A stretch of DNA of 52,435 nucleotides from an uncultured Erysipelotrichaceae bacterium (GTDB taxonomy: Bacteria > Bacillota_I > Bacilli_A > RF39 > UBA660), in the NCBI GenBank assembly GCA_948439995.1, contig CAOJNP010000007.1, positions 1 through 52,435 of the forward strand, written 5' to 3'. Position 1 is the first letter of the stretch. Each line of letters starts with the position of its first letter. Position numbers and translations under genes: made by a program. Below are positions 20,358-25,788 of this stretch, in pieces. The notes beneath the pieces are model-generated. The model saw nothing but the letters and a program-made list of their open reading frames with translations. It had not been told where the DNA came from and made no database searches.

Positions 20358-20373
20358 TCATTTCTTCTTTTTT
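20346..20373 (+). terminator. murC terminator
   Basis: GAAGAAA pairs with TTTCTTC around an 8-base loop and is followed by six T. The left arm is inside the last murC codons and the T run reaches the stop codon of the convergent CDF gene. Confidence 0.65.
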
Positions 20374-21247
20374 AATGCTTCGAATTCAAAAGAGGATTAA
20401 CATGTATTGTTACGGAAAAAACATTTGGAAATTGTTTTAACATTTTTTTCTTTAATCGATCTGCTATTTTATGACTTTCTAAAGTTGTTAAATTTCCATC
20501 TACCAAGATGGATAAAACTACTAAATATTGATTTCCAGTTGGAACCGTTTCAAATTTTGTAATACCTAGTACCCCTTTTTGTTTTGATATAAAAACTTGA
20601 AGATGATTTGCACTATCTATATCCATTGCTTGATCCATTAAAATGTGATAACTTTCTAGAAAAATATGAAAACCAGAAAAACCAATCCATAATGAAATTC
20701 CAACTCCCACAATACTATCCAATATGAAGATATGGTAATATGAAAATACAATAGACAATAACGTAAAACATGTAATAATAATATCATTTCTATGGTCAAC
20801 CATATTAGAATAAACCAATAAGCTTTTTGTTTCCAAATAGACATATCTTGCATAAAAATAAAGACAGAATTTAACAAGAATCGTAATCACACAAACAAAA
20901 CACAAAAGATAAGAAAAAACGACTTCATGACCATTCCAAATTGTTTTAAGAGAATTGATAAAAATTAAAAAAGCACTAAAAATCATAGATAAACTAACAA
21001 ACAAAGAAAATAGAAATTCTGCTTTTCCATGTCCAAAAGGATGATCCTCATCTTTTGGACGTGTTGCAAGCTTACCTCCTAATAAAGTCATAAAAGAAGA
21101 AAAAATATCCATGAAACTATTGACGGCATCTGATATCATCGCCTGACTAGAAAATACAATGCCACTGAAAAATTTCAGAAGCATTAAAAAAAAATTTCCT
21201 ATCACTCCAAAAAAACCAACTTTAGATATTTTTTGTAACTGATTCAT
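20372..21247 (-). CDS. cation diffusion facilitator (CDF) transporter, probably manganese-type
   Basis: Proton-coupled metal exporter with six membrane helices and a C-terminal cytoplasmic ferredoxin-like domain (about 205-291). The membrane metal site is read as N43-x3-D47 in helix 2 (NSFMD) and D151-x3-D155 in helix 5 (DHRND). An Asn-Asp/Asp-Asp tetrad is known from MntE-type Mn exporters, while zinc-type members use His in one or both motifs. HPFGHGKAEF between helices 2 and 3 is the family loop. GGAGG precedes the ATG. It is convergent with murC. Metal choice is inference. Confidence 0.9.
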   Translation of the reverse strand: MNQLQKISKVGFFGVIGNFFLMLLKFFSGIVFSSQAMISDAVNSFMDIFSSFMTLLGGKLATRPKDEDHPFGHGKAEFLFSLFVSLSMIFSAFLIFINSLKTIWNGHEVVFSYLLCFVCVITILVKFCLYFYARYVYLETKSLLVYSNMVDHRNDIIITCFTLLSIVFSYYHIFILDSIVGVGISLWIGFSGFHIFLESYHILMDQAMDIDSANHLQVFISKQKGVLGITKFETVPTGNQYLVVLSILVDGNLTTLESHKIADRLKKKMLKQFPNVFSVTIHVNPLLNSKH

Positions 21248-21463: not shown

Positions 21464-21500
21464 AAAAAAAATGCTTTTTTATTCAAATAGCACTTTTTTA
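21464..21500 (-). terminator. terminator after the ABC-like gene
   Basis: Hairpin with AAAAAxTGCT/AGCAxTTTTT arms around an AT-rich loop; T runs occur on both strands, so it may work in both directions. It follows the ABC-like gene's stop. The remaining gap up to 21247 is AT-rich with no other clear feature. Confidence 0.45.
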
Positions 21501-23168
21501 TTTTTCTTTCTTTTTCAAAAATTTAGTTACCTTACCACGTTCTACTTCAAAGATTTTATCAGAAACATCCGCTAATTCATCATTTGCTGAAAATACAACA
21601 ATAGTTTTAGACCCATGAAGTTTTAGTAAAGTTTTCTTAATATATTCTTTATCTTTTCCACTTAAATAATTTGGAAATTCATACAAAACTAGGATTTCAC
21701 TATTCATCAGTAATAATCGCGCCAATCCTAATAAATATTGTTCTCTTTTTGGTAAAGCATTTGCTTCGGTTTTTAATTCATCTGGTAATTCTTTAATATA
21801 ATCATAAATTCCAACTTGTTTTAATACTTCGATAATCCGCTCTTTTTTCGGATCAATTAACTGTAAATTTTTCATAATAGATCCATGATAGAAAAAAGGT
21901 TTCGTTGTTAAATAATTTAAATTTTTTAAAAATATTTTTTCTTTATAATCTTGTATTTTTATTTTATCAATATACACATCACCCGTATCTGCTAAAATCA
22001 TTCGGCGAAGTAAATAAAAAATGGTTCGTTTTCCACTACTTCTTGTTCCATGAAATAACACAGTTTGATTCGATTCAATATGAAAACTCACATCACGTAA
22101 ATCATTTAATTCAAAATCATCAAAATGAGAAGCATCCACATTAACATTAACAAAATCAATTTCACCAGAAATATCATCAAGTTTAATATTTCCAAATTGA
22201 ATCTCATTTTTCTCATCAAAATTCAAAATGATATTTACTCGATTACAAGTCACATAAGCGTTTTTTAACTCGGTTAAAATTCCCATAAAATCTTTACTAT
22301 TGGTAATACTATCCGTTAAATAAGAAACCACAATCAAATATACTGTTAAAGAAAGATTTCCAAGCGAAAGCAAATAAATCAAAACTAACGTAACAAGATA
22401 AATAACGGTTTTATAATAACCAAAAAAACTATTATCAAGCATACTACTAGCCATCGTCTTTTTTTGTTGATGAATCATAAATTGTTCATTTTTTTTCAAA
22501 AATTCTTTTTCCATTTTTTTGGTTAAATCATAAGAATCAATCATATTTTTTGATAAAATAATTTCTGAAAACGTTTCAAATTCAGAATCAACAGCTTCTT
22601 TTGTCTCTTTTGTTGCAATGCTAATTTTTGAGTTAATCCAATTTAATATTTTATAATTCACTCCGATAATAAATAAAATAACAATTCCAATCGGAAAAGA
22701 TACAGAAAAAACATAAGAAAGTGTTAATATAGTAGATAAGAAATAACGAAATCTAGAACATATCTGATCACTAAACTTTGCTGTTTCATAAGCATCACTA
22801 TGAAAAATATTAATTAACTTTTCTTTCGAAATCGCTTCAAAGTTTTTTTCTTTCCCACGAATAATTTTATGAAAAATTTTGTTTTCCAATCGTTTATAAA
22901 TATCTCCAACAAGATTATATGTATTTTTATAATTTAAAATCCAAGAAAATTGACGAAGTAAAATAAATAAAAGACCCAGTGTCAAACAAAAAATTGCCAT
23001 TTTAAAATTGCCATCTGCTAAACTGGTCGTAACTTTTGCCACGTACATCGATTCACAAACCAAACAAATACTAACCACAATTACAGTTGCAAATTGAAAA
23101 AACCAATAAGCCTTATTCGGCTTACATAAATGATACCACTCTTTTAGCATCCGAATATTTTCTTTCAT
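21498..23168 (-). CDS. ABC exporter-like protein with a degenerate nucleotide-binding domain
   Basis: Laid out like an ABC exporter half-transporter: six membrane helices (about 20-290) then a nucleotide-binding domain (about 335-550). Every catalytic motif is altered. Walker A reads G374-TRSS-G379-K380-R381, with Arg for Ser/Thr. The Q-loop position has LTTKPFF without Gln. The signature LSGGQ is LPKRE (472-476). Walker B is ILVLYE with Tyr496 for Asp and Glu497 kept. The H-loop His is absent (FSAND, 526-530). The reading frame is intact, so this is not simple decay. It may partner a functional half-transporter encoded elsewhere or act without ATP hydrolysis. Confidence 0.85.
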   Translation of the reverse strand: MKENIRMLKEWYHLCKPNKAYWFFQFATVIVVSICLVCESMYVAKVTTSLADGNFKMAIFCLTLGLLFILLRQFSWILNYKNTYNLVGDIYKRLENKIFHKIIRGKEKNFEAISKEKLINIFHSDAYETAKFSDQICSRFRYFLSTILTLSYVFSVSFPIGIVILFIIGVNYKILNWINSKISIATKETKEAVDSEFETFSEIILSKNMIDSYDLTKKMEKEFLKKNEQFMIHQQKKTMASSMLDNSFFGYYKTVIYLVTLVLIYLLSLGNLSLTVYLIVVSYLTDSITNSKDFMGILTELKNAYVTCNRVNIILNFDEKNEIQFGNIKLDDISGEIDFVNVNVDASHFDDFELNDLRDVSFHIESNQTVLFHGTRSSGKRTIFYLLRRMILADTGDVYIDKIKIQDYKEKIFLKNLNYLTTKPFFYHGSIMKNLQLIDPKKERIIEVLKQVGIYDYIKELPDELKTEANALPKREQYLLGLARLLLMNSEILVLYEFPNYLSGKDKEYIKKTLLKLHGSKTIVVFSANDELADVSDKIFEVERGKVTKFLKKKEK

Positions 23169-23237
23169 AACTTCACACTTCCCTATTCTTTCTAGTTAAG
23201 TATACCAAAAAATAAAAAAAATGAAAATTAAAAAATG

Positions 23238-23259
23238 AAAAAAAGAGCTTTTAAGCTCT
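23238..23259 (-). terminator. efp terminator
   Basis: AGAGCTT pairs with AAGCTCT on the minus strand, followed by a run of T. The efp stop codon TAA falls in the hairpin turn. Confidence 0.75.
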
Positions 23260-23811
23260 TCCAGAATACTTTCCATCACTTGTAGAAATTACTATTTTTT
23301 CTCCTTGATTAATAAACAAAGGAACTTTTACCACATATCCCGTTTCAATGGTGGCATCTTTCATTGCATTATTGGTGGTATTTCCTTTTACAGCAGGTTC
23401 TGTTTCAATAATTTCAAACTCTACTTTTTCTGGTAAACTAACACCAAGAATTTCTCCTTCATATTGATCAATTTGAATTTCCATTCCTTCTTTAATAAAC
23501 TTTGATTCATTCTCTAATTTTGAAGCAGGTATTTCTAATTGTTCATAGGTTTCTGTATTCATAAATACATAGTTAGATCCATCGATGTATAAAAATTGCA
23601 TAGGCATTTTATCAACATGTGCACGTTCAATTTTAATATTTGTATTATAAGTATTTTCTACTATACTACCAGTTCTTAAATTTTTTAATTTAATTTTAAT
23701 AAAAGGACTTCCTTTTCCTGGTTTAACATGTTGAAATTCTTGAATTAAACATAAATTTCCATCGACAATAACCGTCATTCCATTTTTGATATCATTAATA
23801 TTAATAAGCAT
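23251..23811 (-). CDS. efp: elongation factor P
   Basis: Ribosome-binding factor that relieves stalling at proline runs. Three beta-barrel domains are evident: an N-terminal KOW-like domain with HVKPGKGSPF (modification-loop Lys at residue 33), the central OB domain and the C-terminal domain with ATIETGYVVKVPLFI and the final ISTSDGKYSGRA. 186 residues, normal length. The ATG at 23811 is preferred; an in-frame GTG 9 bases earlier is possible. It lies 14 bases after rpmG and shares its promoter. No EF-P modification enzyme is in the window. Confidence 0.96.
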   Translation of the reverse strand: MLININDIKNGMTVIVDGNLCLIQEFQHVKPGKGSPFIKIKLKNLRTGSIVENTYNTNIKIERAHVDKMPMQFLYIDGSNYVFMNTETYEQLEIPASKLENESKFIKEGMEIQIDQYEGEILGVSLPEKVEFEIIETEPAVKGNTTNNAMKDATIETGYVVKVPLFINQGEKIVISTSDGKYSGRA

Positions 23812-23825
23812 TAAACTCACTCTTT

Positions 23826-24153: not shown

Positions 24154-25788
24154 TTAATCATTCAAAACTTTGTTTCGAATTTTAGGATTATGATTTTTTA
24201 ATACTTCATCATTCTTATTTACTTGATAACTACTCGCAAAAACAATCGATGAAAGAATGGGAAACCGATACGATAAATCATACACTGGCTCAACATAATA
24301 AAAAAGAACATCAGAACAAGATGAATTTATCATTCGAAATGTTTCCATTTCTTCTAATTTAGTATACATCGGATTTCGAATGTTATCCCAAACAGAATCT
24401 ACAGGTCTTTGATAAAAATTTTCTAAAAAAGAAAAATAATCTTTTTCCAACAATTCCATTTGATAAAGAAATCTCTCATCCACAATTTTTTTATCTTCTT
24501 CATAATAAAAAGAATCATTCACTAAAATTTGTTGGATCAAATCAAATAAATATACATTCTCTTCCAAAGAAAAATCTGTTTGATTACTTGTATATTCTTT
24601 CATTTGAGCTAAAAACCTTTTAAAAATTAATATTTTAAAATCAAATCCTACTGCTTTTTTGGAATCATTGTAACTAAGTGAGTCCAGTGTATTATAATAT
24701 AAAAAACTCGAATCATTATCAAAAAGAATGGTATCCATAGAAGATAAAATAAAATACATTTCTCTTTTATCTTCTTCATGAAAAGCACCCAAAAAAGAAA
24801 ATAATTGATTGATATCACTATCAAATAAGGCATTATAATAATCATTTAATGAAACATCATCTCTACCTAACGTTAAGATAAATAACATTGCCTCATATTT
24901 CCGTTCTAATTTATAATTTAATAAACCAGTTTCATATTTATATTCATTAATCATGGGCATATCCCAAACATTAAATACTTCTGATTCTGCAGAAGATTCA
25001 ATCAAAAATGAAGAATATTCACTTTGAAGACTAATTCTTGGATACAATAAAAAAGATTTTCTACAATCACAAGCATATTGTCTTAAATGATTTAGTTCAT
25101 GCCTTAAAATATAAGCAAATTCTTCCCATAATAAGATGGATTCATTTTTTGATTTTTGAATCGCATCAATATTTAAAACAATTAAGTTACACCTTGGAAC
25201 ATAATATGCAAGAGTAACAATTTTATTTTCACTTGGCAAATATTTCTCCAAAGGATTCACAAAAGAATCAGCTATCACACCTTGTTTTCCAAAAACAATT
25301 TTAAGTGATTGCATTTTGCAAAAATCCTCATTTATATCGTTAGTATGATCCAGATAATAATCTGTTAATACAGTAGATAGTGCTACTTCTAAATCTTTAT
25401 TTGCTACTTTATCACTATAAAAAGCATTCTGATAAGTTGTATTTTTTTCTAAAAAGATCGAAGAATTATCACAAATTTTCGAAATTAGATTTTCAATATT
25501 TCCGTCAAATTTAAAATGACATGTTTCAATATCTCTTATTTGATTTAAAATTTCCATCGATTCTTCATAATCAGGAAAAAAAGAAGAGCAAGGAGAATGA
25601 TAAGCAAAATTGTTAGAAGTAGAAAATAAAGAATTAACATTTCGCTCTATTAATTCATCCATTATTTGGTTACCATTTGAAAAATTGCCATCCGATTCTT
25701 TTGAAAATTTATGATTGGAAGAACCATTTAAAATAATTGAAAGAGACATCAATAAACTAAATATTTGAATCCTTTTTCTTGATTTCAT
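24154..25788 (-). CDS. putative secreted zinc metallopeptidase-like protein (HELNH)
   Basis: I do not recognise the family. The 544-residue protein has a basic start and a hydrophobic segment (about 8-20) that could be a signal peptide. Residues 221-238 form a helix with H230-E-L-N-H234, the HExxH zinc motif, preceded by WEEFAYIL; ESSAE at 264-268 could give the third zinc-ligand Glu. Several Cys (67, 90, 106, 157, 200, 240, 242) might form disulfides. The C-terminal 200 residues look helical without known motifs. It lies between rpmG and a PBP gene on the same strand. Peptidase activity is inference from one motif. Confidence 0.6.
   Translation of the reverse strand: MKSRKRIQIFSLLMSLSIILNGSSNHKFSKESDGNFSNGNQIMDELIERNVNSLFSTSNNFAYHSPCSSFFPDYEESMEILNQIRDIETCHFKFDGNIENLISKICDNSSIFLEKNTTYQNAFYSDKVANKDLEVALSTVLTDYYLDHTNDINEDFCKMQSLKIVFGKQGVIADSFVNPLEKYLPSENKIVTLAYYVPRCNLIVLNIDAIQKSKNESILLWEEFAYILRHELNHLRQYACDCRKSFLLYPRISLQSEYSSFLIESSAESEVFNVWDMPMINEYKYETGLLNYKLERKYEAMLFILTLGRDDVSLNDYYNALFDSDINQLFSFLGAFHEEDKREMYFILSSMDTILFDNDSSFLYYNTLDSLSYNDSKKAVGFDFKILIFKRFLAQMKEYTSNQTDFSLEENVYLFDLIQQILVNDSFYYEEDKKIVDERFLYQMELLEKDYFSFLENFYQRPVDSVWDNIRNPMYTKLEEMETFRMINSSCSDVLFYYVEPVYDLSYRFPILSSIVFASSYQVNKNDEVLKNHNPKIRNKVLND

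Follow-up and report, generated by a model that had tools for sequence, protein, structure and literature searches.

The active site of an ABC transporter is composed of the Walker A and Walker B motifs of one subunit and the signature motif of the other. BmrCD and TAP retain one complete site despite a degenerate one, and to our knowledge the signature by which a degenerate subunit completes its partner's site is retained. The degenerate-site exporters known to us keep one working site, and the ATP-free relatives known to us (SbmA) have no nucleotide-binding domain. In degenerate heterodimers one site stays complete (PMC7756269). SbmA is a transporter that evolved from ABC exporters and is driven by protons (PMC13316013), and ion movement by LmrA persists when the nucleotide-binding domain is removed (PMC2704374, PMC6155054). 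The literature searched, which came mostly from outside subscription journals, yielded no bacterial exporter in which both sites are dead. A conserved exporter that has kept the domain, with both sites dead, would close the gap between degenerate-site exporters and SbmA. It would also be a naturally occurring case in which to test whether the membrane domain of an exporter functions when ATP is not hydrolysed.

A gene that may be of this kind lies in a stretch of 52,435 nucleotides from an uncultured Erysipelotrichaceae bacterium (hereafter, the window). On the minus strand, positions 21498-23168 form an open frame of 556 codons without internal stop, and the plus strand is full of stops. The frame, Pfam, an AlphaFold2 model, and Foldseek identify the product as a degenerate half-size type IV ABC exporter of 556 amino acids, with one membrane domain (residues 1-330, 22179-23168, minus strand) and one nucleotide-binding domain (residues 331-556, 21501-22178, minus strand); as a half-transporter, it must dimerise to form a pathway. 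Pfam matched ABC_tran (3.8e-12) and ABC_membrane (1.9e-9), and none of the best 25 NCBIfam matches reached the cut-off. A sequence-only reading had described an open 556-codon frame with a retained fold and all ATPase motifs degraded. The open frame and the fold stood, the strand being the minus strand, and the motif tables agreed with each substitution. Walker A reads G374-T-R-S-S-G-K380-R381-T382 (22023-22049), with Arg381 in place of the Mg-ligand Ser/Thr; the Q-loop region L420-T-T422-K-P424 (21897-21911) has Thr422 where Gln is expected; L472-P-K-R-E476 (21741-21755) stands instead of LSGGQ; Walker B is V494-L-Y496-E497 (21678-21689), with Asp changed to Tyr and Glu kept; and the H-switch region F526-S-A528-N-D530 (21579-21593) has lost its His, all on the minus strand. 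Only 4 of 11 key catalytic residues are kept, short of the motif set of an active pump.

The fold of a type IV exporter, a six-helix membrane domain followed by a C-terminal ABC domain, was recovered by Pfam, a PDB profile search, the model, and the fold search. The AlphaFold2 model (pLDDT 87, pTM 0.71) was built from an alignment of 44 sequences, mostly exporters from viral contigs and most of them with canonical motifs; a model from two sequences had a pLDDT of 35 and was discarded. Six long helices were predicted (2-51, 55-104, 115-156, 158-205, 216-268, and 274-315), together with both coupling helices (107-111 and 207-212) and a complete nucleotide-binding domain. The best solved matches in Foldseek were TM287/288, TmrAB, and MsbA (E about 1e-26), and fold comparison reached a VIA Z of 30.4 over 547 aligned residues at 2.7 A, a match that is partly built in because the alignment behind the model consists mostly of such exporters. 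The model indicates that the sequence fits the exporter fold, and nothing beyond.

Nine orthologs were identified; together with the window gene they all belong to one family, where they cover ten species and four genera. A search of relatives yielded those of the same genus: G005 (88% identity), G006 (76%, its contig being partial), and G004, which matched on two contigs at 77% and 64%. G269 and G345 (44%), G105 (39%), and G497 (53%) came from profile searches at the level of the family and the order, and G785 and G788 (41%) from genus searches. The substitutions are conserved, as degenerate motifs recur in G004, G005, G006, and three more genera. Canonical motifs in close relatives, which the sequence-only reading had named as the sign of recent decay, were not encountered, all nine orthologs being degenerate. 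The Walker A Ser/Thr position holds Arg or Lys except in G788, from which the whole P-loop has gone; the Walker B Asp is Tyr in nine carriers and Asn in G788; and the Q-loop, signature, and switch His are degenerate in every carrier. The signature appears as LPKRE, LPNRE, LPEGK, ISQRD, LSLRE, LNKRD, or LSERN, none of which preserves the form that would complete the site of a partner. This degeneracy is not due to chance, because 79 of 81 other exporters keep at least 9 of the 11 key residues and members of the clade keep 1-5. Outside the clade there is a second, separate, partly degenerate exporter lineage, comprising L017 (G022:C6:41024-42625; 4 of 11) and L131 (G269:C48:66-1706; 7 of 11).

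A full-length phylogeny of 89 exporters placed all eight complete orthologs in one clade with support of 100, on a long stem of 1.31 changes per site, nested inside the radiation of exporters of the same family. A tree of the membrane domain alone returned the same clade with support of 1.0, so the grouping was not made by shared motif loss. These alignments and trees show that the dead motifs are ancestral to the clade, with a single old origin. Sampling 385 genomes of the order and 296 of the class turned up no ortholog beyond the family. A search of the genome collection with the window protein returned G005 and, as short matches of 25-33% identity, three further loci; other ABC ATPases reside at two of these. 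Viral contigs scanned with sister exporters yielded none, and no plasmid record covered 80% of the query at any one place. Within the family, carriers make up 4 of 7, 1 of 22, 2 of 5, and 3 of 9 species of the four genera, counts that include incomplete genomes; this patchy distribution makes the function look dispensable and counts against the explanation that we favour below.

Purifying selection acts on the gene. For the closest pair of species, the window's and G005, dN/dS was 0.075 overall, 0.046 in the membrane domain, and 0.130 in the nucleotide-binding domain, for which such an estimate had been proposed beforehand. The value was 0.031 for G269 against G345 and 0.12-0.26 for more distant ortholog pairs, in which synonymous sites are near saturation; across all tested pairs it was 0.03-0.26, with no sign of the relaxed selection of a pseudogene. 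Surrounding genes compared with G005 had values of 0.025-0.14, apart from one fast-evolving neighbour at 0.35. This neighbour (24154-25788, minus strand) encodes a protein of 544 amino acids, 52% identical to that of G005, with no Pfam match and an RHELNH stretch that resembles the HExxH of zinc peptidases.

Constraint on this gene is inverted: its membrane domain is the better conserved part, the reverse of what most working exporters in the same set of genomes show. In two active, full-length exporters of the same genus, amino-acid identity was higher in the nucleotide-binding domain in 8 of 8 comparisons; in a third, for which part of the membrane domain was compared, this held in 1 of 5. 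The seven orthologs compared for invariant positions (clade identity 49%) have 58 in the membrane domain versus 39 in the nucleotide-binding domain, and twelve random sets of seven sister exporters (38-46% identity) have 12-36 versus 49-73. With selection centred on the membrane domain, an ATP-independent function is the simplest reading. Our preferred explanation, to which we give about an even chance, is that the exporter was reassigned in a common ancestor to ATP-independent work of its membrane domain, with the nucleotide-binding domain serving as a scaffold. Two positions that never vary in the clade, E39 of helix 1 and R72 of helix 2, are mostly Ile and Tyr in the sisters, and the alignment makes these two residues candidates for a functional role, nothing more. 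E300, invariant like E39, may correspond to E314 of LmrA, which is a lead only.

Selection also persists in the nucleotide-binding domain and the coupling region, which counts against the preferred explanation and could mean that the protein has a regulatory rather than a transport role, binding or sensing a ligand or a membrane protein somewhat as SUR does on a channel. The 14 invariant residues within positions 101-134 (the first intracellular loop and coupling helix), together with the newly conserved residues Y478, P499, N418, and Y419 of the nucleotide-binding domain, have the pattern that an interface between proteins or between domains would give. We nevertheless regard such a role as unlikely, though worth keeping in view, since the entire six-helix domain is conserved and no constant neighbour presents itself as a client. 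In the window's genus, and in G497 of another genus, the exporter follows the conserved upstream neighbour efp (elongation factor P, named from its sequence; 23251-23820, minus strand in the window), with a cation transporter or an MFS gene as the other neighbour. In the window, the downstream gene encodes a cation diffusion facilitator (Cation_efflux, ZT_dimer; 20372-21247, minus strand), which is a neighbour in most of the genus even where the exporter is missing. In G269 and G345 the exporter lies in a surface-glycan cluster and adjoins an O-antigen ligase-like gene, and in G105, G785, and G788 its neighbour is a DUF5698/DUF2179 membrane gene that overlaps it or abuts it. Two carriers have additional frames between efp and the degenerate exporter: a transposase-like frame of IS30 style in G004 (L165, G004:C133, 829-1689), and, in G005 only, a frame of 245 amino acids with no Pfam match (L059, G005:C26, 7374-8111).

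The exporter gene has a putative promoter of its own. A scan of the window revealed TTTTCA and TATACT separated by 17 nt, with a TG extended -10 (23199-23227, minus strand), and scan and sequence revealed an intrinsic-terminator-like hairpin with a T run after efp (23241-23262, minus strand), which would separate the two transcription units. Every ortholog whose upstream region could be read, nine in number, carries TGnTATAnT roughly 27-39 bases ahead of the ATG; these nine are not all independent of one another but span four genera and three neighbourhoods. The chance expectation of the element is 0.2-2.7% per ortholog, and an extended -10 precedes 8 of the 45 ATG-started frames of the window.

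It is also conceivable that the protein is the inactive half of a heterodimer, pairing with an intact half-transporter encoded elsewhere and giving the second half of the membrane path. Exporters with one degenerate site are common, and the sister group holds adjacent pairs of that kind. A partner half-transporter, for which the sequence-only reading had suggested a search, is not adjacent in any carrier with readable context: no half-exporter lies next door on either side in G000, G005, G004, G497, G269, G345, G105, G785, and G788, nor on the one readable side in G006. The signature that would complete the site of a partner has been lost, and the gene has its promoter-like element and three different neighbourhoods. 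C51, the nearest intact exporter of the same genome, was ruled out as an obligate partner, since close orthologs of it are lacking from the other carriers. We therefore consider a heterodimer rather improbable. Elsewhere in G000, one half of an exporter pair (G000:C4:47305-48837, beside L068) carries three internal stops and its neighbour half is intact; in G005 both are open.

Nucleotide could alternatively act by binding alone, Lys380 and Arg381 holding ATP without Mg and thereby switching the membrane domain. In keeping with this, the P-loop glycine and lysine are kept in 9 of 10 carriers with Arg or Lys alongside, but the signature that closes over ATP is gone, and G788, which has neither the glycine nor the lysine, is still under selection, so nucleotide gating seems very unlikely.

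Loss of the gene can be followed within the genus. In G002, the space between efp and the cation transporter comprises 655 bases without a gene, and in it fragments match the exporter C-terminus and residues 26-37, in the expected order and strand (E 5e-6; none of 200 shuffles was as good). From these matches, it is most likely that the ancestor of the genus had the gene and that G002 lost it by fragmentation. In G003, a glycosyltransferase-like gene occupies the exporter's place. Recent decay of the window gene was ruled out by dN/dS and by motifs common to four genera. That the gene is in decay at all, its frame open by accident, is hardly credible: all motifs are degenerate, some species lack the gene, and G002 has only fragments, but dN/dS is low throughout, complete orthologs have no stops down to 35-46% identity, the same substitutions occur across genera, the promoter element is kept, and the genuine remnant, that of G002, is short and broken and looks nothing like the window gene.

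Reassignment of the exporter to ATP-independent work would account for these observations as follows. ATP hydrolysis would have been lost in the common ancestor of the clade, and the gene then kept for a job of the membrane domain that does not need it. The protein would form a homodimer in which the nucleotide-binding domains act as a cytoplasmic scaffold holding the coupling helices, and the membrane domain would move its substrate passively or, in the manner of SbmA-type transporters, by an ion gradient. The most likely activity of the membrane domain is facilitated or gradient-driven transport, the transport step itself being inferred. The Walker A Ser/Thr and the Walker B Asp, which are the two Mg ligands, have been lost along with the signature, so no consensus site would form even with an intact partner. 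The suggestion that loss of all motifs points to a non-hydrolytic role is thus supported, as far as sequences can tell, by the degenerate motifs of all orthologs, the low dN/dS, and the lack of an adjacent partner. Against our explanation, the Walker A Lys and Walker B Glu persist in most orthologs, which makes ATP binding possible. It is possible, although we lean against it, that the protein is a natural intermediate between ATP-driven exporters and gradient-driven transporters, run by ions with its dead domain as a scaffold and independent of the SbmA lineage. Annotation from Pfam domains alone would label it an ATP-driven pump, which serves as a warning.

Among known systems, the type IV exporters TM287/288, TmrAB, MsbA, and Sav1866 resemble the window protein over the whole fold, with six long helices, coupling helices, and a C-terminal nucleotide-binding domain; unlike them, it has no catalytic motifs and its selection pattern is inverted. 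BmrCD, TM287/288, TAP, and CydDC likewise possess a nucleotide-binding domain without catalytic residues that has been kept by evolution, but in each of their dimers one site is complete and their genes usually come in pairs, whereas the window protein has no signature and no partner nearby. With the SLiPTs SbmA and BacA it shares the membrane domain of an ABC exporter and, presumably, a mode of work that needs no ATP hydrolysis (PMC13316013). The SLiPTs have neither nucleotide-binding domain nor coupling helices, whereas the window protein has the full domain and both predicted coupling helices; an extra TM0 region and a conserved glutamate ladder in the cavity are SLiPT features. The proposal is also akin to truncated LmrA, in which an exporter membrane domain runs on ion gradients without ATP hydrolysis (PMC2704374, PMC6155054), but that truncation is an engineered fragment of an active pump, not a pump that is inactive by nature.
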